From positions 1,501,001-1,565,000 of the forward strand of contig NZ_FNSK01000001.1 in the NCBI RefSeq assembly GCF_900105075.1: DNA of 64,000 nucleotides. The letters run 5' to 3'. The notes beneath the pieces are model-generated. The model ran no database searches. It worked only from the letters and a program-made list of their open reading frames with translations, and was not told where the DNA came from. Below, piece after piece: positions 7,306-40,020 of the stretch (the first letter of the stretch is position 1; each line of letters opens with the position of its first letter). Position numbers and translations under genes: made by a program. Source of the stretch: Rhodobacter sp. 24-YEA-8. GTDB taxonomy: Bacteria > Pseudomonadota > Alphaproteobacteria > Rhodobacterales > Rhodobacteraceae.

Positions 7306-9471
7306 ATGCGGATACGCCGCCTCGTCGCATCGCTGGCCGTCTCGCTTTTATGCTCCACCGCACCGCTTCTGGCGCAGGCACCCGATGACCGCGCCACTCT
7401 GATCTCTGACCGGCTGGAAATCGAGGGTAACAACCGACTCGTCGCTTCGGGCAAGGTCGAGGTGCTGCAAGGCGGCTACCGGCTTTCGGCCACGCGGGTC
7501 ATCTATGACAAATCGACCGACAGGCTTTTGATCGAAGGGCCGCTGAGCCTGACCGATGCCGATGGCAGCGTACTGATCCTCGCCTCGCAGGCCGAACTTT
7601 CCGCCGATATGAATGAGGGGATCCTGCAGAGCGCCCGTGTCGTTCTGGACCGGCAGCTGCAACTGGCGGCGGGCAATATCGCGCGGATCGGCGGGCGCTA
7701 TTCGGCAATGTCGAATGTGGTCGCCTCAAGCTGCAAGGTCTGCGCCAGCCATCCGACGCCTTTGTGGGAGATCCGGGCGAAACGCGTGATCCATGACGCA
7801 GAAGAGCGGATGATCTTCTTTGAAAACGCGCAATTCCGCGTCGCCGGAATGCCGGTGGCCTATATCCCGCGTCTGCGCCTGCCCGATTCCACCCGCGAAC
7901 GGGCGACCGGCTTTCTGGCGCCCCGGCTGCGCACGACATCGAGCCTCGGCTCGGGGCTGAAACTGCCCTATTTCATCGCGCTTGGGGAAAGCCGCGATGT
8001 CACGCTCACACCCTATGTCACCACCCGCGACAGTCAGACTCTGGAACTGCGCTATCGTCAGGCCTTCCGGACCGGCGCGATCCAGCTTGAAGGCTCCGTG
8101 ACGAAGGACAAGCTGACCGAAGACGCGACGCGCGGCTGGGTCCGTGCCCGGGGCGGCTTTCAGCTGCCCGAAGATTTCCGGCTGACCTTCGATATCCAGG
8201 CCACATCGGACAATGCCTATCTGCTGGATTACGGCTATTCCGATACCGACCGGCTCGACAGCCGGGCCGAGATCAGCCGGGTACGCCGGAATGGGTTTTT
8301 CTCGGCAAGGATGGTCAGCTTCCAGTCGCTTCGGGATGACGAGGACAATGACACCCTCCCCGCGCTTGCGACCGATCTGACCTTCCACCGGCGGTTCTCG
8401 CTGGGTCCGATCGGGGGCCTCGGGGGGTTCCGGCTGCAATGGCATTCGCATTACCGCACCTCGTCGAACCCGTTTGACAGCAGTGATCCGGCGAAAGCCG
8501 ACGGGATCGCCGATGGCCGTGACGTGAGCCGGCTTTCTGCGCGGTTCGACTGGCGCCGCAGCTTTGTCTCGGATCAGGGCCTCGTGGCGACGATTCTCGG
8601 CGAAAGCCAGATTGACGCCTATCGCCTGCGCCAGGATGCGGTTTTTGCCGGCCGCTATACCCGTGCCCATGCGGCGGCCGGGCTGGAGCTGCGCTGGCCG
8701 CTGGTCAAGGCGACCGCCTCAGGCGCGACCCATGTGATCGAGCCGGTGATCCAGCTGATCGGCGCGACCCGTGACCGCTCTGGCCTGCCCAATGAGGATT
8801 CGGTGCTGGTCGAGTTTGACGAGGGCAATATCTATGCGCTTGACCGCTTTCCCGGGGCGGATGCGATTGAACAATCCAGCCGCGCCAATGTCGGGCTGAC
8901 CTGGACGCGCTATGATCCGGCGGGCTGGAATGCAGGTTTCACGCTGGGCAAGGTGTTCCGGCGCAATGACAGCGACAGCTTCAGCCCCGGATCGGGCCTG
9001 GGCGGGCTGAATTCCGACTGGCTGCTGGCGGCGACCGTCGGTCTCCCCAATGGTCTCTCTGCCACCGGGCGCACGGTTTTTGACAATGATCTTGAACTCA
9101 GCAAGGCCGAGCTGAGGCTGAGCGCCGCGAATGAGACAGTGACCCTGTCATCTTCCGCACTCTGGGCGGTCGCGGATATCGAGGAAAACCGCCCCGACCC
9201 GACGCGCGAGCTGACCTTTGATGCGGTCTGGCGGGTGAACCCTGCCCTCGCGGCCAAGGCCGAAGGGCGCTATGATTTCAACCAGAGCCGCGGCACCATT
9301 GCGGGCCTGGGGCTGGAGTTCCGCAATGAATGCGTTGTGGTGGATGTTTCCCTCTCGCGGCGTTTCACCTCGTCAGATAGTGTAACCCCCACCACGTCCT
9401 TCGGCCTTTCTGTCGATCTGATCGGCTTTGGCAGCGGCCAGAAGGCTGGCCCGTCGCGACGCTGCTACTGA
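7306..9471 (+). CDS. lptD: LPS assembly outer-membrane protein LptD
   Basis: A 721-residue outer-membrane protein. A signal peptide (MRIRRLVASLAVSLLCS, cleavage near AQA) is followed by an OstA/LptA-like beta-jellyroll (LISDRLEIEGNNRLVASGKV) and then the large beta-barrel. A CxxC-type pair (SSCKVC) sits near residue 140 and another Cys (RNEC) near the C-terminus, positions where LptD forms inter-domain disulfides. The frame is open from 7273 inside lptG, but the ATG at 7306 gives a proper signal peptide. LptD inserts LPS into the outer leaflet. Placing lptD behind lptFG and ahead of the chaperone gene surA is normal for this order. Confidence 0.95.
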   Translation: MRIRRLVASLAVSLLCSTAPLLAQAPDDRATLISDRLEIEGNNRLVASGKVEVLQGGYRLSATRVIYDKSTDRLLIEGPLSLTDADGSVLILASQAELSADMNEGILQSARVVLDRQLQLAAGNIARIGGRYSAMSNVVASSCKVCASHPTPLWEIRAKRVIHDAEERMIFFENAQFRVAGMPVAYIPRLRLPDSTRERATGFLAPRLRTTSSLGSGLKLPYFIALGESRDVTLTPYVTTRDSQTLELRYRQAFRTGAIQLEGSVTKDKLTEDATRGWVRARGGFQLPEDFRLTFDIQATSDNAYLLDYGYSDTDRLDSRAEISRVRRNGFFSARMVSFQSLRDDEDNDTLPALATDLTFHRRFSLGPIGGLGGFRLQWHSHYRTSSNPFDSSDPAKADGIADGRDVSRLSARFDWRRSFVSDQGLVATILGESQIDAYRLRQDAVFAGRYTRAHAAAGLELRWPLVKATASGATHVIEPVIQLIGATRDRSGLPNEDSVLVEFDEGNIYALDRFPGADAIEQSSRANVGLTWTRYDPAGWNAGFTLGKVFRRNDSDSFSPGSGLGGLNSDWLLAATVGLPNGLSATGRTVFDNDLELSKAELRLSAANETVTLSSSALWAVADIEENRPDPTRELTFDAVWRVNPALAAKAEGRYDFNQSRGTIAGLGLEFRNECVVVDVSLSRRFTSSDSVTPTTSFGLSVDLIGFGSGQKAGPSRRCY

Positions 9472-9653
9472 TCGCCGCGCAAGGCGCCGCCCGACCAGGG
9501 CGGGTCAGGCAGGCAGGGCTTGCGCCCCGGCTTCGGGAGTGGCAGGCAGGGATAAGAGGAAAGCTGCGGCGGCGGGCCCCGATTGGCCCTGTCAGTCACA
9601 GGTTTGCCAGAGATTAAGAGCTGACAAGAGACTACGGGCAGGCGGTCGGACAG

Positions 9654-10961
9654 ATGGTAAAAGCTGAGAACACCCCGCGCAACAGGCTGCGCAATGCGAC
9701 TTCGGGACTGGTCCTGATGAAAGCCCCGGACATGTGCACATTCAGGGGCGCGATCATGAGCGCAGTCATGAGCTCGGCATTCGCCGCACCGCTGGTCGCG
9801 CCGGTGGTTTTTGCACAGCCCGCGCTGGCGCAGAACCTGTTTGCGCCGCGGGTCTACGTGAATGAGCAGGTCATCACCGAATATGAGGTGACGCAGCGCG
9901 CGCGTTTCCTCCAGATCCTGAATGCGCCGGGCGATCCTGAAACCGAAGCGGTGAAATCGCTGATCGACGACCGGCTGCGGATGAGCGAGGCGAAACGGCT
10001 TGGCGTTAAGCTGAAGCCGGAAGAACTGACTGCGGGGATGGAAGAATTCGCCACCCGCGCCAATCTGACCGCCGAACAGCTGATTGCGGAACTGGCCAAG
10101 GCCGGTGTCTCGGCCGAAACCTATCGCGATTTCGTCCAGGCCGGTGCCTTGTGGCGCCAGGTGGTGCGGGATCGTTTTGCCGGGCGAGTGCCGGCCTCCG
10201 ACGCCGATGTCGACAAGTTCCTGGAAGCCGCGACCCGGCCAAAGGCGATGAAGGTTCAGGTCTCAGAGCTGGTGATCCCGGCCGAACCCGGCCGTGAGGC
10301 CGAGGCGATGGCACTGGCAGAGCGGCTCTCGCGCGAGGTCAAATCCGAAAGCGCCTTCGCGGCGGCGGCGCGCAACTATTCGGCGGCGCCCACCGCGCCT
10401 ACCGGCGGTCGCGTGCCCGACTGGCTGCAGCTTTCCAACCTGCCGCCTGCGATTTCCTCGCAGCTGCTGGCGCTGTCGCCGGGAAAGACCTCGGCGCCCA
10501 TCTCGGTGCCGGGGGCGGTGGTTCTGTTCCAGCTGCGCGCGATTGCCACGGATGAAAAGGCCGCGCCAATCAGCGTCACGGTGGAATGGGCCGATTTCCT
10601 GATCCCGGATTCGATGGAAGAACTGGTGCGGGTCAGCGCGGGCTCAGATGTCTGCAACGACCTTTACGCCCTGGCAAAGGGCTTGCCGGCCGACAATCTG
10701 ACGATCCGGACACAGGCATTGTCGGAAATCTCGCCCGAGATTGCGCTTGATCTTGCAAAGCTGGATCAGGGGGAGTTTGTGACAAAGCCGCGCGGTGATG
10801 GCTGGCGGCGGCTGATCATGCTGTGCAAACGGCAGCCGGTCATGGATCCGCCCCCGAACCGCGAGCGGGTGAAAGAGGTTCTGATGAACCAGAAGCTCGA
10901 TGGTCTGGCCGAGAATTATCTCGAGGAACTGCGCCATGCGGCGCTGATCCGCCGGCCCTGA
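9654..10961 (+). CDS. surA: SurA-type periplasmic chaperone / peptidyl-prolyl isomerase
   Basis: Up to 435 residues. After a hydrophobic leader ending near FAQPALAQ, the mature protein starts with the SurA N-domain pattern VYVNEQVITEYEVTQRARFLQIL. A parvulin-like PPIase domain follows in the middle (VSELVIP, FAAAARNYSAAPTAPTGGRVPDWL). The C-terminal lobe is a second, degenerate region. The start is uncertain: ATGs occur at 9654, 9717 and further in, and only the inner ones put the signal peptide near the N-terminus. SurA escorts outer-membrane proteins such as LptD, the gene just upstream. Confidence 0.88.
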   Translation: MVKAENTPRNRLRNATSGLVLMKAPDMCTFRGAIMSAVMSSAFAAPLVAPVVFAQPALAQNLFAPRVYVNEQVITEYEVTQRARFLQILNAPGDPETEAVKSLIDDRLRMSEAKRLGVKLKPEELTAGMEEFATRANLTAEQLIAELAKAGVSAETYRDFVQAGALWRQVVRDRFAGRVPASDADVDKFLEAATRPKAMKVQVSELVIPAEPGREAEAMALAERLSREVKSESAFAAAARNYSAAPTAPTGGRVPDWLQLSNLPPAISSQLLALSPGKTSAPISVPGAVVLFQLRAIATDEKAAPISVTVEWADFLIPDSMEELVRVSAGSDVCNDLYALAKGLPADNLTIRTQALSEISPEIALDLAKLDQGEFVTKPRGDGWRRLIMLCKRQPVMDPPPNRERVKEVLMNQKLDGLAENYLEELRHAALIRRP

Positions 10962-28771: not shown

Positions 28772-29054
28772 CCCGCTTCTCCCGTTTGCCGGTTTCAGAT
28801 GCAGCCTAAGCATGGCCAGGTCAGAGGCCAAGTGGGGGATCGCTCAAACCTGCGTGCGCGGCCCGCGCCGGGTCAGCAAACCCTGCGCGACGCAAAGACC
28901 GCCTGATCTTTCACAGGGCGCGCGCCATCCAACCCGGCCGCTGCCAATTTTCCGCCCTGAACACTCATCCCGAGAAAAATCCTGTCGAAACGGGCTTGCG
29001 CTTCCCGAAACACGAAGCTAAACCCCGCCTCCATAGACGACCCCCAGAAAGCGC

Positions 29055-29144
<90 letters not shown>

Positions 29145-29164
29145 TTTCACATTTGCTGTGGGTA

Positions 29165-29552
29165 AACGCGCCTAACGCCTTGAAGGGTAAGGACGTTTTT
29201 GGGGTTCGAAACCCTGTTTCCGGTGCATATTCCAGACGATCACAAAACGCCAGTTTCAGCACTAATTTTTGGCACTCGATTCTGCCAAGATTCCATATTT
29301 TTGAAGGGTTTGCGAGGAAACCGAAGGCGAGTTCGAACAATTCCTCAAAGGTACCATGTCGCTGAGTGCAGTTCAGGCGCTTTTCCTCAAACGCGATCTT
29401 GCTGCGTTCAAGTGTGCTGATCCGCTTCTCATAGGCCTTCGTCACCGTACCCGATGTGGCTTCAACGATCCTATCAAGCAACGCTTCAATCTGGGTATCA
29501 ACCTTGGCGATCTCGCGCTCATAAGCTTTCGTCATCGCCTTGGCCTGCACAG
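29165..29552 (-). pseudogene. Serine recombinase (large resolvase) C-terminal remnant
   Basis: From the IS edge at 29552 leftward the frame reads AYEREIAKVDTQIEALLDRI and AYEKRISTLERSKIAFEEK. It continues LFELAFGFLANPSKIWN and ends GFRTPKTSLPFKALG. This is the coiled-coil and C-terminal tail shared by proteobacterial large serine recombinases with a zinc-ribbon domain. The N-terminal catalytic and DNA-binding parts are missing, cut off exactly at the IS3 element. Past SLPFKALG the frame reads on through the complement of the tRNA (AERVGFEPTV), which is an artefact. The family often integrates at tRNA genes. Confidence 0.85.
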
Positions 29553-29566
29553 TGAGCTACTCCCCG
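29553..29566 (+). repeat. IS3 element left inverted repeat
   Basis: TGAGCTACTCCCCG, a perfect inverted match to 30806-30819. The TGA start is typical of IS3-family ends. Confidence 0.9.
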
Positions 29567-29591
29567 ATGCTTGGACAGTTTTCGAGGATGT

Positions 29592-30458
29592 TTAAGCTAC
29601 TGCCTGTGCCTGCCGGTCGGTTTCGATGCTGTTGAAGTAGACCACGGCGGGGGGCAACCCGCCATGGGCAGTGTGTGGCCGCCGATGGTTATAGAAGCTG
29701 ACCCAGGATCCGATTGCGGCCTTTGCCTGAGACCCGGTCTCCCAGGCATGCAGATAGACGCATTCGTATTTCAGGGACCGCCACAGGCGCTCGATGAAGA
29801 CATTGTCGATGCACCGCCCCTTGCCGTCCATCGAGATGCGGGTTCCGACGCGTTTCAGCCGATCTGTCCAAGCGAAGGACGTGAACTGGCTGCCTTGGTC
29901 AGTGTTCATGATTGTGGGCGCGCCGAACCGGTGGATGGCCTCGTTCAACGCCTCGACGCAGAAGTCCGCTTCCAGGGTGTTCGATATGCGCCAGGCCAGA
30001 ACTTTGCGCGTGAACCAGTCCATGATGGCGACCAGATACAGAAACCCCCGCCGCATCGGGAGATAGGTAATGTCGGCGCACCAGACCTGACCGGGGCGAT
30101 CGACCCGCAGCCCGCCCAGCAGGTAGGGATAGGTCTTGTGGCCCTTTCTCGGCTTGCTGGTGTTGGGCTTCTGGTAAATCGGCATCAAACGCATGAGCCG
30201 CATCAGCCGCCGGATGCGCTTCTGGTTCACGCCGTGCCCCTCGTTTTGCAGATGCCAGGTCATCTGCCGGACGCCGTAGAAGGGCGTATCCATGAACTGC
30301 CGGTCGATCAGCTGCATCAGGCCGAGGTTCTGATCAGTCTCTCCAGCCGGCTCGTGGCAGAACGACGAGCGCGAGATCGACAGCAGGCGGCACTGCGCCC
30401 CGATCGACAGTGCAGGGTGGTCCCGTTCGATCATCCCACGCCTCACTTTCCGCTCCAC
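29592..30458 (-). CDS. IS3-family transposase OrfB (DDE integrase core)
   Basis: A 288-residue product from the GTG at 30458, most likely made only as an OrfAB fusion. It has the HTH_21 region (FYGVRQMTWHLQNEGHGVNQ) and the rve domain with catalytic residues in VWCADITYLPM (D), IMNTDQGSQFTS (D) and NVFIERLWRSLKYECVYL (E). The C-terminal FYNHRRPHTAHGGLPP motif is standard. All three acidic residues are present, so the enzyme is probably active. Confidence 0.95.
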   Translation of the reverse strand: MERKVRRGMIERDHPALSIGAQCRLLSISRSSFCHEPAGETDQNLGLMQLIDRQFMDTPFYGVRQMTWHLQNEGHGVNQKRIRRLMRLMRLMPIYQKPNTSKPRKGHKTYPYLLGGLRVDRPGQVWCADITYLPMRRGFLYLVAIMDWFTRKVLAWRISNTLEADFCVEALNEAIHRFGAPTIMNTDQGSQFTSFAWTDRLKRVGTRISMDGKGRCIDNVFIERLWRSLKYECVYLHAWETGSQAKAAIGSWVSFYNHRRPHTAHGGLPPAVVYFNSIETDRQAQAVA

Positions 30459-30739
30459 GGCTTGAGCTTTCGTGACAAAAAATCGTTGGCGACAGCCAGC
30501 TCCCCGATCTTGGCGTGCAATGACCGGACCGTCTCTTCATCCACCTCCGTCGCGGGCTTCTTGCCGCCGCGCTCGAAGATGTCCGCAGCCCCGTCGAGCA
30601 GCGATTTCTTCCATTGATGGATCATCGTCGGATGCACGCCGTATTCGGCCGCCAACTCCGACACAGTGCGCTCGCCCTTGATGGCCTCAAGTGCCACGCG
30701 CGCCTTGAAGCCCGCGTCATGGTTCCTGCGTTTTCGCAT
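30443..30739 (-). CDS. IS3-family transposase OrfA (HTH protein)
   Basis: A 98-residue DNA-binding protein beginning MRKRRNHDAGFKARVALEAI, with the helix-turn-helix TVSELAAEYGVHPTMIHQWK and a C-terminal leucine-rich helix (LHAKIGELAVANDFLSRK) for oligomerisation. Near its end lies the heptamer T TTT TTG (complement at 30476-30482), in the correct phase for programmed -1 frameshifting into orfB, which overlaps by 16 bases. Confidence 0.94.
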   Translation of the reverse strand: MRKRRNHDAGFKARVALEAIKGERTVSELAAEYGVHPTMIHQWKKSLLDGAADIFERGGKKPATEVDEETVRSLHAKIGELAVANDFLSRKLKPWSGK

Positions 30740-30805
30740 GCCTGATCTCCTCGTCCGTGGAGACCAGCAAACGTCAGATCGTAGCTTCCGTCACTGTCCG
30801 ATTTC

Positions 30806-30819
30806 CGGGGAGTAGCTCA
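30806..30819 (-). repeat. IS3 element right inverted repeat
   Basis: The complement of TGAGCTACTCCCCG; it lies upstream of orfA and is matched by 29553-29566. Confidence 0.9.
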
Positions 30820-31225
30820 AGCGCTTGCGCTGACAGGTGACAACATCAACGCAAGTGACGGCACCATAGCTGTGCGCAGCCTGAAAAAACGCGGTGCCTT
30901 CATCGTGCGCGAAATCCCCGTGCCCGATCATATCATCAATCAACTGAAAAGTTTGAGCGGGGCAGAAGATGCCCTGCTCTGGACGCTCTCGCGCAGCCGT
31001 GCATGGTGGCTGATAAAGGCCGTCATGCAAGACGCCAAAATAGGCGCAGGCCCTCACGCCACACCGAAGGGCTTGCGCCATGCCTACGGGGTACACGCGA
31101 TCCGTTCAGGCATCCCCATTACACTTGTGCAGCGCTGGCTTGGTCATGCCAGCCTGTCTACAACCGCTATCTATACCCATGTGCTGGGGCATGAAGAACG
31201 CGAAATCGCCAGCCGCATGTGGTGA
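30820..31225 (+). pseudogene. Tyrosine recombinase/integrase, C-terminal catalytic half
   Basis: The frame is open directly from the IS edge and reads ALALTGDNINASDGTIAVRS. It then runs through KGLRHAYGVHAIRSG (box II R and H) and LVQRWLGHASLSTTAIYTHV, which holds the second Arg/His region and the nucleophilic Tyr. The first catalytic Arg and the N-terminal core-binding domain are missing, removed at the IS border. The first usable start inside (GTG 30872) would give a 117-residue protein that cannot be a full recombinase. It is convergent with traG, whose stop lies one base away. Confidence 0.88.
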
Positions 31226-31226
31226 G

Positions 31227-33233
31227 CTAGAATCCGATTGCAATGGCATAGGCCGCAACCGCACCGCCCACCGCCAAGATCTTGAGCGCCATGAATGTTG
31301 CAGAGCGCAACGCCAGCCTCACCAAACCCGTTCTGGCAGGGCGCACTGGCAGCACAATCTCGCGCGGAGGTAGGGTATTCTGCGCCGAAGGTGCTACGGC
31401 TCTATTCTGGGCAGGCGGCGGGGGCGTTGCCAGTACGTGCTTGAAGAACACCGCCATATCCCGCTGTGCAATCTGCGCACGGGTGAGCGGCGGTGCATGA
31501 TCGCGGTGCGGATCGAATTTTTCCGCAAGCACAGGATTAGTAAAATACAGGGTGCGCTTTAGTGCGACAGGTTGCAGGCCAGAGATCAGCGCCAACATGG
31601 CGGGGTTCTGGCGGCTACCGAACAACCGCCCTACTTCATCCGGCGTCAGCGACGGGCGCTTGTGGAAGGTTTCACTAGCACCCTTGGTGTTCCCCTCACT
31701 GGTGCCATGTGTCGTGCTGCGACTCTCACCGCGTGACCAGCCTTCGCTGGCACTTCGGGAATCCCCTAACGTGAAGCTGCCGTTTTGCCCGAATGATGCA
31801 GAGCTGGACGAGCCAATCGTGCGATTGCCGGAATACCCCCGTTGGGTGCCGTGGCTTTCACTCTGGCTGCGCCCCTCGCTATGACTATAGCTTTGTGCCC
31901 AACGGCGCAGTTCCATATCGCCAATCATCTTGGAAACATATTCGCGTGTGAAATTGTCATCATTCCCGAAGAACAGTTTCACGCCCGCATTCGCCACCAT
32001 GGTTTCCCAGTTGTCTTTATACACGTCCTTCAACTGCGCCATGTTTTGCGACACAAACATCATCTTCACGCCATAGCCCGCAATTTGCGCGGCTGCGTTC
32101 TCAATCACCTTCATGCGCCCAAGCGCCGGAAACTCATCCAGCACCATCAGCATAGGGTGTTTGGGCGGAACGCGCACACGGGCGCGTTCCATTTCACCCA
32201 AGATCAACGTAGTCATCATGCGCAGCCAGCGGTAATGACTGCCCATGAAACGCTGCGGCAGACACAGGTACGGACTGGTGGGTGCGGTCTTTAGATCAGA
32301 TAGCTGGAAGCTCGATCTATCAAGGCAGGAACGCAGCGCAGGGCTGTCCAGAAAATCTGTGTTCGTCCGCGCCACTTGCAACGCTGACATCAACGTTCGC
32401 GGCGAAGCCTCCAGCAATTCTTGCAACATCGCCCCGTGCTTTGCGACCACCCCGCCAAACGCGCCGTTGTGTCGCATCCGCGCAAACAGCAGACTGATAC
32501 CGCTGGGCAGTTCTTCCACACCGTTACGCTCAAGAAGGCGGCGCATTTCATCATCGCCTGCCAGAAGTGCATGGCGCAGGGTCAGGAGGTTTCGTTGATG
32601 ATCGGCATAGCTCCGATCACTGGCGACGTGCAGGATCAGCGCTTTGATGATGCCTTTGGCCGTATCATCAAAGAAGGAATCCCCACCCCCTTCGCTGACG
32701 ATCAAGGCATCCGCCATACGCGCCGCATCGTCCACCGCCTCGCGCTTGCGCGTCAGGATCACATCCAGCGGATTGAACGCTGCCCGCATATCCGCAAAAT
32801 CATCGCCCCCCCCCCGCACCACTTCGCCAAAGGGATCAAGTATCAACACACGCTGTCCCAAGCCCGCGCTATAGGCAGATCCCGCCCCGCGTCTGCGGGC
32901 AGTGACCATAGCGTTTTCTCCCTTGGGGTCGATCACCACTACCGACCCCGGCCACAGGCACAAATTCGGCACGATTACAGACGCGCCTTTTCCCATGCGG
33001 GTGCCGCTCACCAGCAGCACATGGCGGTCATCACGGTATCCGGCAGGTTCGCCTGCAAGATCACGCGACAACCACAGATCACCCGTGCGAAACCGGAAAG
33101 CACCCGCAGCGTCTAAATTGTGCCACGCCGCCGTGCCGAGCGGGATATGAGATGCATCGGTGTTTGTGACCGCACCGGACATGGAATGTGCCACGCCGTG
33201 CAGGGTAGGCAGATTGACAATGCTATTGGTCAT
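31227..33233 (-). CDS. TraG/VirD4-like type IV coupling ATPase
   Basis: A 668-residue protein. The P-loop GTRMGKGASVIVPN is followed by VVVIDPKGENAMVTA. The Walker B region is LMVLDEFPALGRMKVIENA, and FVSQNMAQLKDVY follows; all are T4CP signatures. There is a Ser-rich linker around residues 460-530 (repeated SES/SRS/GTSEG). Unusually, no membrane span precedes the P-loop; one span is predicted at the extreme C-terminus (ILAVGGAVAAYAIAIGF). Coupling proteins carry relaxase-bound DNA to a secretion channel; no channel genes are nearby. The ATG at 33233 is preferred to the TTG at 33251. It lies 14 bases behind the relaxase gene. Confidence 0.9.
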   Translation of the reverse strand: MTNSIVNLPTLHGVAHSMSGAVTNTDASHIPLGTAAWHNLDAAGAFRFRTGDLWLSRDLAGEPAGYRDDRHVLLVSGTRMGKGASVIVPNLCLWPGSVVVIDPKGENAMVTARRRGAGSAYSAGLGQRVLILDPFGEVVRGGGDDFADMRAAFNPLDVILTRKREAVDDAARMADALIVSEGGGDSFFDDTAKGIIKALILHVASDRSYADHQRNLLTLRHALLAGDDEMRRLLERNGVEELPSGISLLFARMRHNGAFGGVVAKHGAMLQELLEASPRTLMSALQVARTNTDFLDSPALRSCLDRSSFQLSDLKTAPTSPYLCLPQRFMGSHYRWLRMMTTLILGEMERARVRVPPKHPMLMVLDEFPALGRMKVIENAAAQIAGYGVKMMFVSQNMAQLKDVYKDNWETMVANAGVKLFFGNDDNFTREYVSKMIGDMELRRWAQSYSHSEGRSQSESHGTQRGYSGNRTIGSSSSASFGQNGSFTLGDSRSASEGWSRGESRSTTHGTSEGNTKGASETFHKRPSLTPDEVGRLFGSRQNPAMLALISGLQPVALKRTLYFTNPVLAEKFDPHRDHAPPLTRAQIAQRDMAVFFKHVLATPPPPAQNRAVAPSAQNTLPPREIVLPVRPARTGLVRLALRSATFMALKILAVGGAVAAYAIAIGF

Positions 33234-33247
33234 GGTGTTTTCCCGTC

Positions 33248-34387
33248 TCAAAGGTCGAGATCAAAGCCACGTTGTTTGGGGGTTCTGGGGCGGGAAGCAT
33301 CGGGAGCTTTCTTCGCATCCAACCCCATTGCCCGCGTCAGGCGCAGCATCTGGCCTATCTTCGCAGCAAGTTTCATACGCTCTTGGCGTTGCTGGGTTTT
33401 AAGATCAGCACGGCGCTGATGCAGCGCCGTCATGTCTGCGGCCTGCACCTGATACAGCCCTTCCCGCTGGCTGCGGTCACGCTGGTATGCCGCGACCGCT
33501 TCACGGCCATTCTGCGCCCGCGTCTGTGCCGCCCGTCCTGTGATAAAATCCAGCACGCCTTTCAGGCCAGAGCGTAAGCGTTCGGCCCGCTCTTTGGATT
33601 CCGCCTGCCAGCGCTGTGCATGGCCGCGCTCCAAGCGCAACCGTTCCGCACGATGCTCGCGCACCAACTTGGCGCGTTCATCCTCAAGCGGTTTCAGGGC
33701 GCGGCGTTGTTCTTCACGCGAGGATTTCAGATGCTCTTTCAAACCCGCTGACAGCTTGGCTTGGGTCTGCGCTTTCGTATCTTCAACGCTAGGCAAAGCA
33801 TCAGGACTACCAAGACGGGCGGTTACGTCCTTGGTTTTCACCCCCGTCATGCGGGCGACTGAATACACCTCACCATGAATATCAACCGCGACAAAGCCAC
33901 GCCGATCACCTCGCGCCAGAAAATATCCGCTATCCTCAAGGGCTGCCTTAAAGCTTTGTTGGTTGTCCGATCCGATCCAAGCTTGCTGAAATACCTGTTT
34001 GATTTCACGCGGATCAAGGTCGATCCGCTGCGCTTGCTGCCATTCAGCAAGTGTGAAGTTGAGAGGATTTTTCCAGCCCTTTTCGCGGTAACCTTCCGAC
34101 AGCTTCCAGCCATGTTCAAGATACAGGTCTTTGGACAAGGCGTTGAGTGCGGTTTTGAAATACGGCAGATTCACCGCCTTCAAGCTCTCGGCATCAATAC
34201 GCGACCACACCACATGGGCGTGCCTGCGCCCTTTCTTTTCATGGATCACCACGGCGCGAGGCTGGCCGACCAGGCCGAGCTTGCGCTCAGCTTGGTCAGC
34301 CGCCGCCATGAGATCATCAAGGCTTGCGTTCCCGTCCTTGGGTGGGTTCAGGCTAAGTGAAAACAGGAACTGCTTGCACCGCGTACC
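33248..34387 (-). pseudogene. Relaxase/mobilization nuclease, N-terminally truncated
   Basis: The open frame starts after a TAG at 34388-34390 and reads GTRCKQFLFSLSLNPPKDG without a start codon. The first ATG is at 34309 (353 residues from there). HAHVVWSRIDAESLKAVNLP contains part of the histidine triad of MobA/VirD2-type relaxases. The C-terminal two thirds is a long basic coiled coil. The N-terminal ~60 residues, where the nicking tyrosine of such relaxases lies, are missing. It probably cannot nick DNA. It is followed by traG on the same strand, the normal relaxase-coupling protein order. Confidence 0.82.
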
Positions 34388-34390
34388 CTA

Positions 34391-34830
34391 TCCACCGCAG
34401 CAAAGCCTCATTATCGGGAATCTCTGAAAGCTGACGACAAAGGCGTGCTGTCCGAGATAGCACAACGACCGACTTCATGACTTACTCCCGGGCGATCTAT
34501 GCGAACAAGCTCCGGCTTCTGGTGGCGATCGCATAGAGAAAGATGGGGCCGAGGCTCTTGTCGGTTATGCGGCCGACGATCTAAAGGCGCGCGGTCTGGT
34601 GCCTGACGTGCGAGAGCCGAGCTGCTGCGTTCGCTGGCCGAAGTGCAGCTCGAAGCATTGAACGCCCTCCAGGAGCGCGACGAAGGCAAGGTCAAGGTCA
34701 GCGCACCGAGCTTGCCCCTCCTGACCGAACCCGATCCCGAGCCGGTCGTCATGTCACCCGGTACCCGAGGCACCGGGACAACCTTCTCTGATGTTCTGTC
34801 AGCGCTCCACAAAGAGCGCACCGCTGGAGC
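34391..34830 (+). other. Decayed coding remnants at relaxase break point
   Basis: No intact gene. On the plus strand one frame encodes RIEKDGAEALVGYAADDLKA and ends near 34620. An adjacent frame continues AELLRSLAEVQLEALNALQE and then EGKVKVSAPSLPLLTEPDPE. The two read like one gene broken by a frameshift. On minus, a 41-codon micro-ORF (34353-34478, MKSVVVLSRTARLCRQLSEI...) runs out of frame into the relaxase. I do not recognise either. This is probably the scar of a deletion or insertion that removed the relaxase N-terminus. Confidence 0.45.
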
Positions 34831-34831
34831 G

Positions 34832-35242
34832 TTATTTGTCGCACAGGCAGCTTGCTCTTCCTGCCTCGTCATTCCACCACCCCAGCCGGGCGGTGTTTCC
34901 TGAGAAGGTTTTACTTTTTCCTCGCTTGTCGACGTGTTCATAGAGGGTAACCCTGCATCCGGGGCCCATCTTGACCGAACCTATGTCATCGTTCCAGCGC
35001 CTGGAAAACACTTCGGTATATTGAAAACTATGTCCATTCGTGGTGCTTCTGTATCCGGGGTCATCGGCTGCAATAAGCATCATTCCTGAAGTCAAAACAT
35101 ATGACCGCCCTTTAAAATCCTTATGCTCGAATACCTGGCAGCCATTTTTCAGACCTGGCGTTGTTTCTGCATGCACAGGCAGAGACAGAAAAGATATTGT
35201 GGCTGCCACAATCCAGGGAAGTGATTTTATTTTTCCGATCAC
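34832..35242 (-). CDS. Secreted beta/gamma-crystallin-like protein
   Basis: A 136-residue protein with a signal peptide (SLPWIVAATISFLSLPVHAE). The mature part has two Greek-key-like patterns (aromatic-x4-x-x-Gly): FEHKDFKGRSY near residue 38 and LYEHVDKRGKSKTF near 100. The segments WNDDIGSVKM and WWNDEAGRASC resemble the calcium-binding ND-x-x-S/T-S loops of microbial beta/gamma-crystallins. It ends with CLCDK; three to four cysteines could form disulfides. Base composition is poorer in GC than the core genome. Its product likely binds Ca2+ outside the cytoplasm (inference). It lies downstream of the SH3b gene on the same strand. Confidence 0.6.
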   Translation of the reverse strand: MIGKIKSLPWIVAATISFLSLPVHAETTPGLKNGCQVFEHKDFKGRSYVLTSGMMLIAADDPGYRSTTNGHSFQYTEVFSRRWNDDIGSVKMGPGCRVTLYEHVDKRGKSKTFSGNTARLGWWNDEAGRASCLCDK

Positions 35243-35294
35243 ATCAGATCTCCGTTGTTTTAAAGTGACAATGTCGACATCGCTCCGGACGGCA

Positions 35295-35828
35295 TCAGTA
35301 CTTTGCGATTGACAGAGGGGATCTCAAAACCCAGCCACGCTGACCGGAAGCCGTCTCGACATAGCAATAGCCGTTCCGGCACAAGTTCGATTTCAGCATA
35401 TGCAGAGGCTGTCCGACTGGAATAACCGTAATCACTTCGTCGTGTTTGCTTGGGCCTGACCGCAGGTTGAGCTTGTTCTGGGAAACGCCATAGCCGACAG
35501 AATCAATACGGTCTGGCAAGGGAACTGTAATGTCAGTAGTCCCATCTTTCAGGATCCAGCCTCGGATGCCTCCCGGTCCCTGAACCAGGCAGTATCCGTT
35601 CATGCAACTGGATATGTTCAGGAACACGAACTCACTTCCTTTGGGGAACTCACCAAGTTTCGTGTAGGACTTACCCGGCCCATTGCGAACAGCCAGAAGT
35701 TGCGTTGCTTCACCCCGAATGCCGGGCATGCTTCCGCCACGCCCCATAAGTTGACTCATTGACGCGGAAGGGAGACCTGCCACGACCGCGAGGATAAATA
35801 TGGCCGCACATATTCCGCCAAATCGCAT
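35295..35828 (-). CDS. Exported protein with two bacterial SH3 domains
   Basis: A 177-residue protein from the ATG at 35828, which has a good AAGGA site 7 bases before; the frame itself is open to 35870. The signal peptide (FGGICAAIFILAVVAGL) is followed by two SH3b repeats: LLAVRNGPGKSYTKLGEF...GYCLVQ...GWI and LNLRSGPSKHDEVITVIPVG...GYCYVE...GWV. Each repeat carries the same C-x3-GYC pattern (SSCMNGYC, NLCRNGYC), presumably a disulfide. SH3b domains bind cell-wall or envelope ligands. It is probably co-transcribed with the crystallin-like gene 52 bases downstream. Confidence 0.75.
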   Translation of the reverse strand: MRFGGICAAIFILAVVAGLPSASMSQLMGRGGSMPGIRGEATQLLAVRNGPGKSYTKLGEFPKGSEFVFLNISSCMNGYCLVQGPGGIRGWILKDGTTDITVPLPDRIDSVGYGVSQNKLNLRSGPSKHDEVITVIPVGQPLHMLKSNLCRNGYCYVETASGQRGWVLRSPLSIAKY

Positions 35829-35961
35829 AAATTTTCCTTTCACATTTCTGACAGGGTGGTGTTTGGTCACCAGAATTCACCGCAATCTTCAAAAAACAAA
35901 TGATGACGAAAGGGTTTTTTGCGCACCCGCAATGATTGCAATATAGGGAAATATTCAAAAA

Positions 35962-36366
35962 TTACGGCATACATTTAATATTTTCTATCCGAAACGTGAA
36001 TGGGGTCGACCCAGGGCGTGCAGCGATCATATGCGTTACAATGACGTCAACATGACATTGATCGCTGCTGATCCGATACCCCTGATTTATTTCCTCTATT
36101 GAGCTGATTTTTCGATCATTCAGGGCAGTTGAAATGTATCTGTCATCGAGGATTATTTTAATGACCTTTGCGCTGTCGCTGTATCCGGTGATGGCTGCCT
36201 TTGGCGGGGTGTGCATGGCAAAGGTCAGGGCGATGACAACTATGGTTCTGACGAGGCTGCGTTGCGCGCCTTTCAAGCCCGGATTGGCATCTGCCACGCG
36301 GCCGCTACCAAAGAAAGTCCGCCCATCCGGCAACCATATTGCGTTATTTTGTGCAGGATCCGACAT
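35962..36366 (-). CDS. Small hypothetical exported or anchored protein
   Basis: Read from the ATG at 36366 it has 134 residues; the frame is open to 36510, so the start is uncertain. A hydrophobic segment (LVRTIVVIALTFAM) at about residues 37-50 would act as signal or anchor. The remaining ~80 residues (VIKIILDDRYISTALNDRKI, then EEINQGYRISSDQCHVDVIV) contain two cysteines, one close to the C-terminus (KCMP). No family was recognised. The GC content is low. It is divergent from the OmpA-type gene and precedes the SH3b gene on the same strand. Confidence 0.5.
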   Translation of the reverse strand: MSDPAQNNAIWLPDGRTFFGSGRVADANPGLKGAQRSLVRTIVVIALTFAMHTPPKAAITGYSDSAKVIKIILDDRYISTALNDRKISSIEEINQGYRISSDQCHVDVIVTHMIAARPGSTPFTFRIENIKCMP

Positions 36367-36582
36367 CCCGGACAGCCCTGTCGAAAGATGGGCGCCGATA
36401 CTGCAAGGCGTTGGCAGAGGGCAGGTGAAATAATTCAAGATCATATGCCTCTCAGCGACGGGATGTCCTTTCCGGATCATTGCGGCCCCAGCCGGGAAAG
36501 CATCCACCAAATGGTGGATGTGACTGAAAATATTTCCTCTAAAATCTGCGGCCGGTTGGATAATTACGCTTTAGGAGTTCCC

Positions 36583-37593
36583 ATGAAGACCCGGTCCATC
36601 TTATCTGTTGCGCGCGCCCTGACATCCTGCCTGTTTGCCAGCCACCTTATGACGACAACGGCCGGTGCGCAGGAGCTGCCACAGTTGCTGGACTTCTTTT
36701 CCATCGCGACTCCGACCGAAAAGACACCCCGGATCGACAATTATGACGAGACCTGGATGATCACCGGCCCGGTCTCTGATTCGCTCACGAAAGCGACCGA
36801 GGGCGAGAACTGGAAGCTTCTCGAGGGGCGGATCATCTATGCCTATTACCGCTTCGCGCCGGGCGACAGCGCACTGCAGATCACCCGCAGCTTTGAGGCG
36901 GCGGCGAAGGATGCCGATTATGACGTGGTCTTCTCTTGCAACTCCGAACGTGGCGACTGCTTTACCAGCGGCGACAAGGTGCCGGGGCTCTATGTCGGTC
37001 TGTTGCTTGATAAGCCGAACAATATGCCCGCGCTGGATGCGCTTGATATGCAGATCGTTCGCAACCTTTTCCAGACCGGCGGCGCGCGGCTGCTCTATCT
37101 GACGAAAGGCACCGGCGAGAATGTCATCCATATGCAGGTGGCGCTTGCCGATACCCCGGAAAAGGGGGTCATGGCGATCACCAAGACCGTAATCACCGGG
37201 GATGAGCCGGGGCTGACCGGCGCCACTTCGATGCGCGACAAGCTGGTCGCCGGGGAAAACGTTACGCTCGACAATCTGCTGTTCGATACGGACAGCGCCA
37301 TCCTGTTGCCGCCATCGCGCGAACAGGTTTTCGAGATTGCCATGATGCTGCGTGATGATCCTGCACTGAAGCTGGAGATCATCGGCCATACCGACAGCGA
37401 TGGCGGGCGGCCACATAACCAGGGACTGTCAGAAAGACGTGCAGCGGCTGTGGTCGATGCGCTGGTCAATGGCTTTGACATCGAAGCCGAGCGACTGACC
37501 TCCTCCGGGCGGGGCATGGATGAGCCGGTGGCAAGCAATGCGACCTCCGCCGGAAAAGCCAAAAATCGCCGTGTAGAACTGAGGTTGCGCTGA
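36583..37593 (+). CDS. DUF4892-like/OmpA family outer-membrane protein
   Basis: A 336-residue protein with a signal peptide (MKTRSILSVARALTSCLFAS, cleavage near AGA). The first ~210 residues match the pattern of DUF4892 proteins: WKLLEGRIIYAYYRFAPGDS, then DVVFSCNSERGDC and LYLTKG. The C-terminal OmpA domain has LLFDTDSAILLPPSREQV, LEIIGHTDSDGG, LSERRAAAVVDAL and KAKNRRVELRLR, including the Asp and Arg that hold peptidoglycan. AGGAG lies 6 bases before the ATG. It should tie the outer membrane or a partner to the cell wall. It overlaps the next gene by one base (TGATG). Confidence 0.82.
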   Translation: MKTRSILSVARALTSCLFASHLMTTTAGAQELPQLLDFFSIATPTEKTPRIDNYDETWMITGPVSDSLTKATEGENWKLLEGRIIYAYYRFAPGDSALQITRSFEAAAKDADYDVVFSCNSERGDCFTSGDKVPGLYVGLLLDKPNNMPALDALDMQIVRNLFQTGGARLLYLTKGTGENVIHMQVALADTPEKGVMAITKTVITGDEPGLTGATSMRDKLVAGENVTLDNLLFDTDSAILLPPSREQVFEIAMMLRDDPALKLEIIGHTDSDGGRPHNQGLSERRAAAVVDALVNGFDIEAERLTSSGRGMDEPVASNATSAGKAKNRRVELRLR

Positions 37594-38204
37594 TGAGCCG
37601 GACCATGGCCCTGCTTCGGAACCGTGCGCGAGCCTGGACAAAGGCCGCGGCACTTGCCGTCGCCGCTTTTTCTGTCACGCCTGATCGTGCCGAGGCGGTC
37701 ATGATCTATTTCTATTCCGAGAACCATTGCCGGGGAAAGGTGCGTCTGACCACCCAGTTCCGGGCGGTGAACGGGATCCGCGGCCATGGCCTTGGCAACC
37801 TGAATGATGAATTCCGCTCGGTGAAATTCGTGACGGATTACCCGGAAAAGGCAGATATCGCCGGCGGTTATCTTGCCGTTTACGATGACCCGGAAGGCCG
37901 CCCTTCCGTCGATGACGAGGCCCATATCTGGATCAAGGATATCCGGCTTTTCCCGCCCGGCGGATTTTGCGTTGGGACATTCGAGAACAACCTCAATGGC
38001 GCAGTCAAAGTTGAATACAGGCGCAAGAATGGGCTCGACGGCAAGGTTTCCTACTTTGTGATGGAATGCAGGGACAGCTGCCGGGAAAGCGTCGATCCTC
38101 CGACCGAAAACAGCGGCGCGCCGCCCCGAAAAGAGCTGAAGCTGAGAGACTGGCCGCGGTTTGAGGATCGCGTTTTCAAAGGTGGCAATTTCCCGAAACC
38201 CTGA
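37593..38204 (+). CDS. Exported protein with crystallin-like motif
   Basis: A 203-residue protein. The signal peptide is AAALAVAAFSVTPDRAEA. The mature start MIYFYSENHCRGKVRLTTQF has an aromatic-x4-x-x-Gly pattern, and GNLNDEFRSVKFV resembles the ND-x-x-x-S loop in the 34832-35242 product. Four to five cysteines are visible (HCRG, GFCVG, MECRDSC). The C-terminal 40 residues are Pro/Lys-rich. No exact family is recognised; a single beta/gamma-crystallin-like domain is the best guess. It is translationally coupled to the OmpA-type gene by a TGATG overlap, so the two probably work together. Confidence 0.6.
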   Translation: MSRTMALLRNRARAWTKAAALAVAAFSVTPDRAEAVMIYFYSENHCRGKVRLTTQFRAVNGIRGHGLGNLNDEFRSVKFVTDYPEKADIAGGYLAVYDDPEGRPSVDDEAHIWIKDIRLFPPGGFCVGTFENNLNGAVKVEYRRKNGLDGKVSYFVMECRDSCRESVDPPTENSGAPPRKELKLRDWPRFEDRVFKGGNFPKP

Positions 38205-38304
38205 ACTGCCCCCGTTTTGCCTGACCACCGGCAGCGTTCGATTTTTCTTGCCAGAAAGCAGAGCCCAGGGATCAATATGGCGGGTCTGACCAGGATTTTG
38301 CCAT

Positions 38305-39444
38305 ATGGACTTACATATTTCCCCGGAACGCCTTTCTGCTCTGATTGCCAGAATCTATGACTGTGCCCTTGATCCATCCCTCTGGCCGGATGCGATGGGC
38401 GCGATTTGTGACGAGCTTGATCTTCGCACCGGTGTTGTCAGTCTGATTGATCTGGGAACGGGCCAGCCCCTGCTGGCCTCTGCCACCGGGTTTGATCCCG
38501 CCTGGCTCGGGCGGCTGCACGAATTCTCGGACGGGCTGGTTTCGCTTTGGGGCGGTGAAGCCGTTGTGCGGAACATGCCGCTTGAGGAACCGGCGGTGCT
38601 CTCAGCGGTCAATCCGGTTGCGATTTCCGAGGAGAGCGCTGATCCCTTTCATCTCGGTTTCAATCAGCCTCAGGGTTTTGTCGATGCCATTGCCGTGGGG
38701 CTGACACGCGATGAGACCATGCTCGGAACCATCGGCTTCAACCGTCATGAAAGCCACGGCCTGGTCGGCCCGCGCGAGATCGCGATCATGCGGCTCCTTG
38801 TGCCGCATCTGCAACGCGCGATAGCCGTGAGCCGCGTGCTGGAAATGCAGCAAATCCGTCAGACCAATCTGGAAACCGCACTGCACGCGATCCGTGCTCC
38901 TCTCTTTATGATCGACAGTGATCTACATCTGCATTTCCACAATAGTGCGGCGGAAAAGGTTGTCGCAGATAGCGGCATCCTCAGGGTGGTCAATGGCACG
39001 CTTATATTGACGGACCCGGAGGCGCAGCGCCGGGTCAGAAAAGCGCTGCTTTCGGTCGGCGCATGCGATGATCCCGCAAAGGCCAGCCCCTTTGGCACGG
39101 CCTTCACAGATGCTGAAAATGCGCCATGGGTCGCGCATGTCCTGCCGATCACGGGCAGGGCGGGATCGGCAGGCGCGCAATACATGCTCTTCCTCGCGGG
39201 TCCGTCACTGCGAGAAGGGTCAGCTGCGCTGGAAGCGCTCGCGTCTCTTTACGCACTGACAGGCGCAGAGACGCAGGTCTTGCAACGGCTTTGCACCGGT
39301 CAGTCTGCGAAGCAGATCGCTGAAGATCTTGGCATCGCGCTCAGCACCCTGAAAACCCACACATTGCGGATCTATGAGAAGACAGGGCTGCATCGCCAGG
39401 CGGAGCTGGTCGCGCTGGCCCGTGGTGCGCTGGCCCCGGTCTGA
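38305..39444 (+). CDS. LuxR-family transcriptional regulator
   Basis: A 379-residue regulator. The C-terminal GerE-type helix-turn-helix reads LTGAETQVLQRLCTGQSAKQ, then IAEDLGIALSTLKTHTLRIY and EKTGLHRQAELVAL. The N-terminal ~300 residues contain a GAF/PAS-like sensory region (LRTGVVSLIDLGTG; PLFMIDSDLHLHFHNSAAEK). There is no membrane span or receiver phospho-Asp, so it likely answers to a small molecule. It lies 100 bases after the exported protein gene on the same strand and may control this cluster (inference). Confidence 0.85.
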   Translation: MDLHISPERLSALIARIYDCALDPSLWPDAMGAICDELDLRTGVVSLIDLGTGQPLLASATGFDPAWLGRLHEFSDGLVSLWGGEAVVRNMPLEEPAVLSAVNPVAISEESADPFHLGFNQPQGFVDAIAVGLTRDETMLGTIGFNRHESHGLVGPREIAIMRLLVPHLQRAIAVSRVLEMQQIRQTNLETALHAIRAPLFMIDSDLHLHFHNSAAEKVVADSGILRVVNGTLILTDPEAQRRVRKALLSVGACDDPAKASPFGTAFTDAENAPWVAHVLPITGRAGSAGAQYMLFLAGPSLREGSAALEALASLYALTGAETQVLQRLCTGQSAKQIAEDLGIALSTLKTHTLRIYEKTGLHRQAELVALARGALAPV

Positions 39445-39930
39445 ACAGCACAATTCGGCCCGTCGGAAGGTGATCGGGTCGTGCCCCCGACCGGGCGACG
39501 TCGGCCAATGCCCCCGCGCAGCCTCGCCGACTGCCCGCGGTCAGGCGAGTGACGCAGTCCTAAAGCGCGGGCCAGAGAAGGCGCCTTGTTCAGTGCCATG
39601 TAACAGACACAGAAGCCTGACCTGCTCAGCGCAAATGCTTCGCCCCGACGCCACAGGTGATACCAGGTGGCCTATGCGCACCGCCACGACGCGCCATTCC
39701 AGTTTCTGATCGGCTTCCTTTGCGAAATACTGTTCAAGGAAAGAGCAGCAAAGGAGCGCAAAAGTGAGTGGAAGGACTGGCCCCCCGCTCCAGCGTACGA
39801 GCAGGGCAAGGTGCAGCGTTTTATGTAGTAAAATGCCCAGCAGCACGAAACCAGAGGTGCCTTGGCAACAGGAATACAGCCAATATATCACTTAAAATCA
39901 GCTACATAACAATCTATGTTTCTGAAGTTT
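39445..39930 (+). other. Gap before tRNA-Ser, no confirmed gene
   Basis: About 490 bases. The only protein-like frame is a 53-codon ORF from a GTG at 39667 to 39828 (VAYAHRHDAPFQFLIGFLCE, later EILFKERAAKERKSEWKDWP). It has no good ribosome-binding site and may be a remnant. The last 100 bases before the tRNA are AT-rich. No attachment-site duplication of the tRNA 3' end was found here. Confidence 0.4.
39667..39828 (+). CDS. Possible small hypothetical protein or remnant
   Basis: 53 codons from a GTG; basic, with a hydrophobic patch (FQFLIGFLCEILF) followed by a charged tail. The family is unknown. It sits at the right edge of the island next to tRNA-Ser(UGA). Confidence 0.2.
   Translation: MAYAHRHDAPFQFLIGFLCEILFKERAAKERKSEWKDWPPAPAYEQGKVQRFM

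Positions 39931-40020
<90 letters not shown>

Follow-up and report, generated by a model that had tools for sequence, protein, structure and literature searches.

The stretch of DNA analysed here, referred to below as the window, is 64 kb long (G000:C1:1501001-1565000) and comes from the genome of Rhodobacter sp. 24-YEA-8 (5.0 Mb in 7 contigs, the window genome). It contains a compact block of six genes, A to F (34832-39444), laid out as two divergent arms. The leftward arm, on the minus strand, is made up of genes C (35962-36366), B (35295-35828) and A (34832-35242), while the rightward arm, on the plus strand, consists of D (36583-37593), E (37593-38204) and F (38305-39444). The stop codon of D and the start codon of E overlap in the sequence TGATG at 37593. 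All six reading frames were re-derived from the window and have the coordinates and divergent orientation proposed in a preliminary description of this DNA, which had also pointed out the TGATG coupling of the OmpA-type gene to the next one. Between C and D, a perfect 20-bp dyad is located (36501-36520). The limits of the block as a unit are 34826-39452, as defined by blastn homology to a second copy in a congener, G006. The finding is one of known parts in a new arrangement and not of a new kind of molecule.

Protein D (336 residues, predicted to be exported) combines a DUF4892-type domain with a carboxy-terminal OmpA domain (Pfam, E 1.5e-19). It was aligned with its G006 copy, a paralogue from its own genome and nine proteins from other genomes and plasmids (alignment A6, 12 proteins in all; L064 and L067, from the set of 14 aligned D relatives, are left out). 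The two-domain architecture is common to all 12. Pfam entry PF16234 (DUF4892) matches eight of them; D itself is unmatched by Pfam, although it aligns along the domain with both cysteines. By family, its earlier designation as DUF4892-like is supported. These cysteines form a near-invariant pair in the alignment (C119/C126 in D). The solved DUF4892 protein PA1624 from Pseudomonas aeruginosa likewise has a cysteine pair, bridged, at positions 110-115 inside its predicted DUF4892 stretch; its carboxy-terminal domain is without the glycan-binding motifs that D has (PMC7716261). In a search of the PDB with D, none of the best 60 of 84 matches covers the amino-terminal domain.

In the OmpA domain, D271 and R286 are invariant in all 12 proteins, and D aligns across these residues with solved OmpA domains, for example that of PDB entry 3td3. 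They are 15 residues apart, the same spacing as in the pair reported for binding of meso-diaminopimelic acid (m-DAP) by P. aeruginosa Pba (D142/R157, PMC7947798). The likeness to Pba is one of reported positions; D itself was aligned with YiaD and with further OmpA domains of solved structure. Unlike anchors of the Pba/YiaD type, D carries the additional DUF4892-type domain. A lipobox-like sequence (LTSC/VASC) is present at residues 13-16 of both D copies, but there is an arginine within the hydrophobic stretch. D has relatives elsewhere among the alphaproteobacteria, both in genomes and on plasmids, and their neighbours vary. At one of these loci, on a Rhizobium plasmid (L058, 1886-12520), a DUF4892-OmpA gene lies amid three DUF4189 genes and hypothetical genes whose products look exported; the anchor is of the same type, the surrounding set another.

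Protein B (177 residues from the ATG at 35828, which is common to the window genome and G006) contains two SH3b domains, as had been surmised, with SH3_3 matching in two stretches (E 2.4e-18, 66.5 bits, cut-off 27). Gene C probably starts at the ATG at 36366, which is kept in G006, giving a protein of about 134 residues. This protein, its longer form included, has no match in Pfam, and the G006 protein C has a weak row below the cut-off (E 0.079). By eye, B and C each contain a single hydrophobic stretch, while A, D and E have signal-like amino-termini with ends of the A-X-A type (VHA in A); from these features, export may be expected for all five products A to E.

Protein F (379 residues) was correctly recognised beforehand as a LuxR-type regulator: an amino-terminal part of about 300 residues is followed by a GerE helix-turn-helix (HTH; E 8.4e-12, 45.0 bits, cut-off 23.5). 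The autoinducer-binding domain of quorum-sensing LuxR proteins is not among its Pfam matches up to E 1. Over its full length, F resembles regulators with a LuxR-HTH that are encoded on Rhizobium plasmids (about 31% identity, E 1e-49); in the one annotated region viewed, the neighbours are a sarcosine oxidase, a protein with an M10-type metallopeptidase carboxy-terminal region and a second LuxR protein, unrelated to A to E. Another alphaproteobacterial genome (G089; L073, 3640-8666) has four F-matching frames next to one another.

Protein A (136 residues, predicted to be exported) has a single crystallin-type domain. Its Pfam scores lie below the cut-offs for Crystall_3 (E 6.8e-6, 26.6 bits, cut-off 27.3) and Crystall (E 8.2e-4, 19.9 bits, cut-off 25). 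When A was aligned with four crystallin domains, three from a protein of locus L070 and one from L071, z-scores of 9.0-17.8 were obtained, and in each case none of 400 shuffled sequences reached the score. The L070 protein is itself above the cut-offs for both Crystall and Crystall_3, while the L071 protein is below them. Judged by these alignments, A is a genuine relative of the beta/gamma-crystallins. With microbial members of the family, such as spherulin 3a, protein S and vibrillin, it shares one signature, FEHKDFKG, near YxxxxY/FxG. It differs from them in its imperfect second signature (YEHVDKRG), in an extended insertion within its first half, in the location of its gene among genes for wall proteins and in having no canonical Ca2+ motif in either half. 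This motif, N/D-N/D-X-X-S/T-S (PMC3551895), occurs twice in the L070 protein and once in the L071 protein (NDRISS, NDTLSS); it is absent from A (NDDIGS, NDEAGR), from A of G006 and from E (NDEFRS). The L070 protein (9346-10323, 325 residues, exported-looking) has three crystallin-type stretches and is also above the cut-offs of the peptidase-inhibitor I36 and syncollin models.

Protein E (203 residues, predicted to be exported) had been counted as a second crystallin-like protein. That assignment stands for A but is not supported on sequence for E, which has no Pfam crystallin match and gives z-scores of -0.3 to 1.0 against five crystallin domains, like shuffled sequence. Searches of the family libraries with E returned nothing above the cut-off, the sole Pfam row being Exop_C (E 0.0088, 16.3 bits, cut-off 26.1).

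A close D is present in two of 13 genomes of the genus, namely the window genome itself and G006. In G006, A, B, C and D are found in the same order on contig C43 (4197 bases), so the two arms do occur together elsewhere, a point on which the preliminary description had made its proposal depend. Contig C4 ends with F, beside which lies the other end of E, and the two contigs would meet within E. The blastn homology comprises three pieces (34826-35829, 36346-37613 and 38109-39452), with C, in between, matched at the protein level only. It ends 6 bases past the stop codon of A and 8 bases past that of F, and the flanks differ. To the left of A, G006 has a transposase remnant (DDE_Tnp_1_5) and to the right of F a sulfate-transporter region, the orthologue of which in the window genome is located on the 550-kb contig C2, probably another replicon, and not on C1.

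Protein identities between the two copies are 83% for A, 83% for B, 52% for C (last 102 residues), 92% for D and 88% for F. The ratios of non-synonymous to synonymous divergence (dN/dS) are 0.16 (A), 0.13 (B), 0.48 (C), 0.13 (D) and 0.14 (F), the low values of A, B, D and F indicating purifying selection. The synonymous divergence (dS) is 0.57 for A, 0.74 for B, 0.73 for C, 0.35 for D and 0.47 for F, compared with 0.65-1.13 for six flanking genes of the same genome pair, one of which is an unannotated open frame in the right flank of the window (a second such frame gave no match). Because the values for D and F, and slightly that for A, are below the flanking range, lateral movement of the block after the two species split is suggested. 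The finding of the block in another species, with selection acting on four genes, is more than chance.

The intergenic region between C and D is 69% identical in the two genomes, and the longest identical run in its alignment, 21 nucleotides, consists of the 20-bp dyad, CATCCACCA-AA-TGGTGGATG, plus one base. The dyad is located 62 bp upstream of the ATG of D. An identical run of this kind was reached in 417 of 20000 column shuffles of the alignment, and a perfect 9-bp dyad with a spacer of 0-4 appeared in 111 of 20000 regions simulated with a first-order model. The window genome and G006 each contain a single exact copy of the dyad, and the 11 other congeners have none. When 2 mismatches are allowed, it is found in seven of the 13 genomes of the genus, including five of these 11; all sites save the two exact ones have 2 mismatches. 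Since F is the sole regulator in the block, it would be the natural ligand of the dyad, which is our best candidate for its operator.

The block lies in a variable hotspot (29055-40018) bracketed by tRNA-Ser(cga) (29055-29144) and tRNA-Ser(tga) (39931-40018); apart from these two tRNAs, no RNA family was found in the window at gathering thresholds. To the left of the block, the hotspot contains a transposase (29592-30458), a tyrosine-integrase fragment (30872-31225), TraG (31227-33251) and a relaxase remnant (33248-34309). When the window is compared with the congener G012, the outer sides of the tRNA pair align with 95% and 91% identity, while there is no alignment over the approximately 10.5 kb between the tRNAs, where G012 encodes, among others, a serine recombinase and an FtsK-like protein. 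Different DNA, with a serine recombinase and conjugation genes, is also found beside tRNA-Ser(tga) in G004, viewed on the right side only. The G+C content is 52-60% in the hotspot and 59-69% in the rest of the window (2-kb steps). The tRNA-Ser pair thus delimits an integration hotspot with integrative-element debris next to the block, in agreement with the island setting suggested in the preliminary description.

Searches for the same gene set elsewhere were made in several collections. Close relatives of D (more than 40% identity over the full length) are limited to the window genome and G006, out of 28 of 146 relatives with a match at E<=1e-20, and in a sample of 394 genomes drawn from the family no D besides the window genome's own was found at E<=1e-27 (at most five candidates were scored per genome). 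F is matched in five of 60 genomes at E<=1e-15, with 100% identity for its own copy, 88% for G006 and 24-29% for the rest. For A, four of 60 genomes gave a match, its own and G006 over the full length and two partially. E is found in one of 146 relatives, as its own copy; among 385 genomes of the class, seven have a match at E<=0.01, its own over the full length and the other six over 46-86 residues (E 6.7e-5 or worse). A search with Crystall_3 in 19 genomes gave matches in three, two being A of the block and the third from G024, none above the cut-off; this search is insensitive, since it failed to detect the L070 protein of G020, although hmmscan places that protein above the cut-off. No relative of E or F was confirmed by a peptide-pattern scan of 84,980 species (one genome each), which sees close relatives only and may not include the window genome or those nearest to it. 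Neither A, B, C and E by tblastn in plasmids, at the limits used, nor the whole block by blastn in plasmids and phages had a match, and no pair of A and C was confirmed in viral contigs. Literature searches for the gene set gave no relevant description among the papers listed. Wide co-occurrence in other Rhodobacterales, put forward earlier as a check, was not observed: 12 D-type loci (some from the genus), five F-type loci and two A-type loci were searched with all six proteins, and none has a further member of the set in its vicinity at E<=0.01.

A joint function is more likely than a chance neighbourhood, given that the same gene set is present amid different DNA, that four of its genes are under selection and that the dyad between the arms is conserved; the predicted domains suggest a role in the periplasm and the cell wall. 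With moderate confidence, we propose that the block constitutes a portable and self-regulated module of the periplasm or cell envelope, anchored to peptidoglycan by D. F would bind the dyad in the divergent promoter region between C and D and thereby switch both arms, its own gene included by way of the common direction of D, E and F. The five products A to E would leave the cytoplasm. D would be tethered non-covalently to the m-DAP of peptidoglycan by its OmpA domain, displaying the DUF4892-type domain in the periplasm, and B could bind the wall or a partner protein with its two SH3b domains. A would contribute a small domain of the crystallin type, which has four cysteines and for which Ca2+ binding would be unnecessary, while C and E may be small accessory proteins, E being dispensable. 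As a net result, the periplasm or wall would be reinforced or altered under the condition sensed by F. Export of each protein, co-regulation of the arms, binding of F to the dyad, binding of B to the wall and a benefit to the host are expectations of this proposal; the gene set, the fact that it is found again amid other DNA in another species, the selection, the dyad and the OmpA residues are observed. The preliminary description had likewise proposed a wall-anchored mobile module with a LuxR regulator, and the OmpA residues D271/R286, the mobile DNA and the travelling of F with the block agree with it; its calcium response and its second crystallin are not supported.

Several observations weigh against this proposal. 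Within the searches made, the complete set is in no relative outside the genus; only two genomes carry the block, and in one of these E is interrupted, its first and last parts running into other sequence at two contig ends. The gene set is therefore not inviolate. The intruding sequence has insertion-sequence-like ends by eye, perhaps IS5-like; blastn and tblastx against the fetched loci gave no confirmation, with a weak 37-residue tblastx match to L007 among the matches listed. As the copy is split over two contigs, contiguity of D, E and F in G006 is only presumed. Judged by its dN/dS, C is weakly constrained, and the dS of both B and C falls within the flanking range. Binding of the dyad by F is itself a supposition: dyads of this size are not rare, with 14 matches at 8 sites in the window, and the five F-type loci elsewhere are without a convincing similar dyad (two weak half-site pairs with 4 mismatches are taken as chance).

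The best-surviving alternative to an envelope module is that unrelated exported genes and a regulator, gathered in an insertion-rich hotspot, were moved together once as passenger debris and have no joint function. The transposase and integrative-element debris to the left of the block would fit such an origin, as would the interrupted E, the weak constraint on C and the restriction to two genomes. Against this, the gene order is the same in two species amid different DNA, the homology stops near the block's own gene ends, four genes have a low dN/dS and the dyad between the arms is conserved; debris is thus considered unlikely, but it is the alternative to be taken most seriously.

Integration hotspots often carry cargo for defence or competition. 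In a second alternative, the exported proteins would confer immunity on the envelope, shielding the wall from agents that attack peptidoglycan or bind the surface, such as phage lysins, contact-delivered wall hydrolases and proteases, with A acting like an exported inhibitor. The location of the block in a hotspot and its wall-binding domains are compatible with this, and A matches the I36 model weakly (E 0.016, below the cut-off), its L070 relative strongly (E 4.6e-14). However, no toxin or hydrolase partner is seen within the block, and PADLOC and PHROGs reveal generic OmpA, HTH and SH3/amidase similarity only, as NCBIfam does for OmpA, HTH and SH3, with rows at chance level for A and C (E 0.25 and 0.22). 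No described anti-phage system matches the block, the PADLOC matches (E up to 0.01) arising via OmpA (ZorB) and HTH (CARF) similarity, and we regard an immunity function as rather improbable. Least credible is the calcium-responsive surface module of the preliminary description, for although A is in the crystallin family by alignment, the canonical motif is missing from both halves of A and from E, in contrast to L070 and L071, and E is not detectably a crystallin, so that on sequence the calcium response is not upheld.

If the block is an envelope module, it might further represent a new kind of mobile cargo, a self-contained, inducible cassette armouring the periplasm, in which a LuxR-HTH regulator and a private 20-bp operator move jointly with a DUF4892-OmpA anchor on peptidoglycan, a protein with two SH3b domains and a crystallin-type protein lacking the Ca2+ motif, providing the recipient with a new envelope state on demand; we offer this extension as a tentative possibility. 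The cargo usually sought in integration hotspots concerns defence, resistance or metabolism, to which a compact, self-regulated wall-binding set would add envelope remodelling. DUF4892-OmpA proteins would gain a testable genetic context, and the single short candidate operator makes the question of the regulator directly addressable.

A scan for promoters and terminators gave consensus matches only (7 found and 2.3 expected; 8 found and 5.0 expected) and was left unused. At the borders of the hotspot, a serine recombinase directly adjoins tRNA-Ser in G012 and G004 (window 29055-40018; L105, 3450-14089; L107, 4862-17001). In the window, a frame on the minus strand (28873-29550) overlaps tRNA-Ser(cga); it has no Pfam match and by eye looks like the carboxy-terminal end of a serine recombinase, possibly the remnant of an element.

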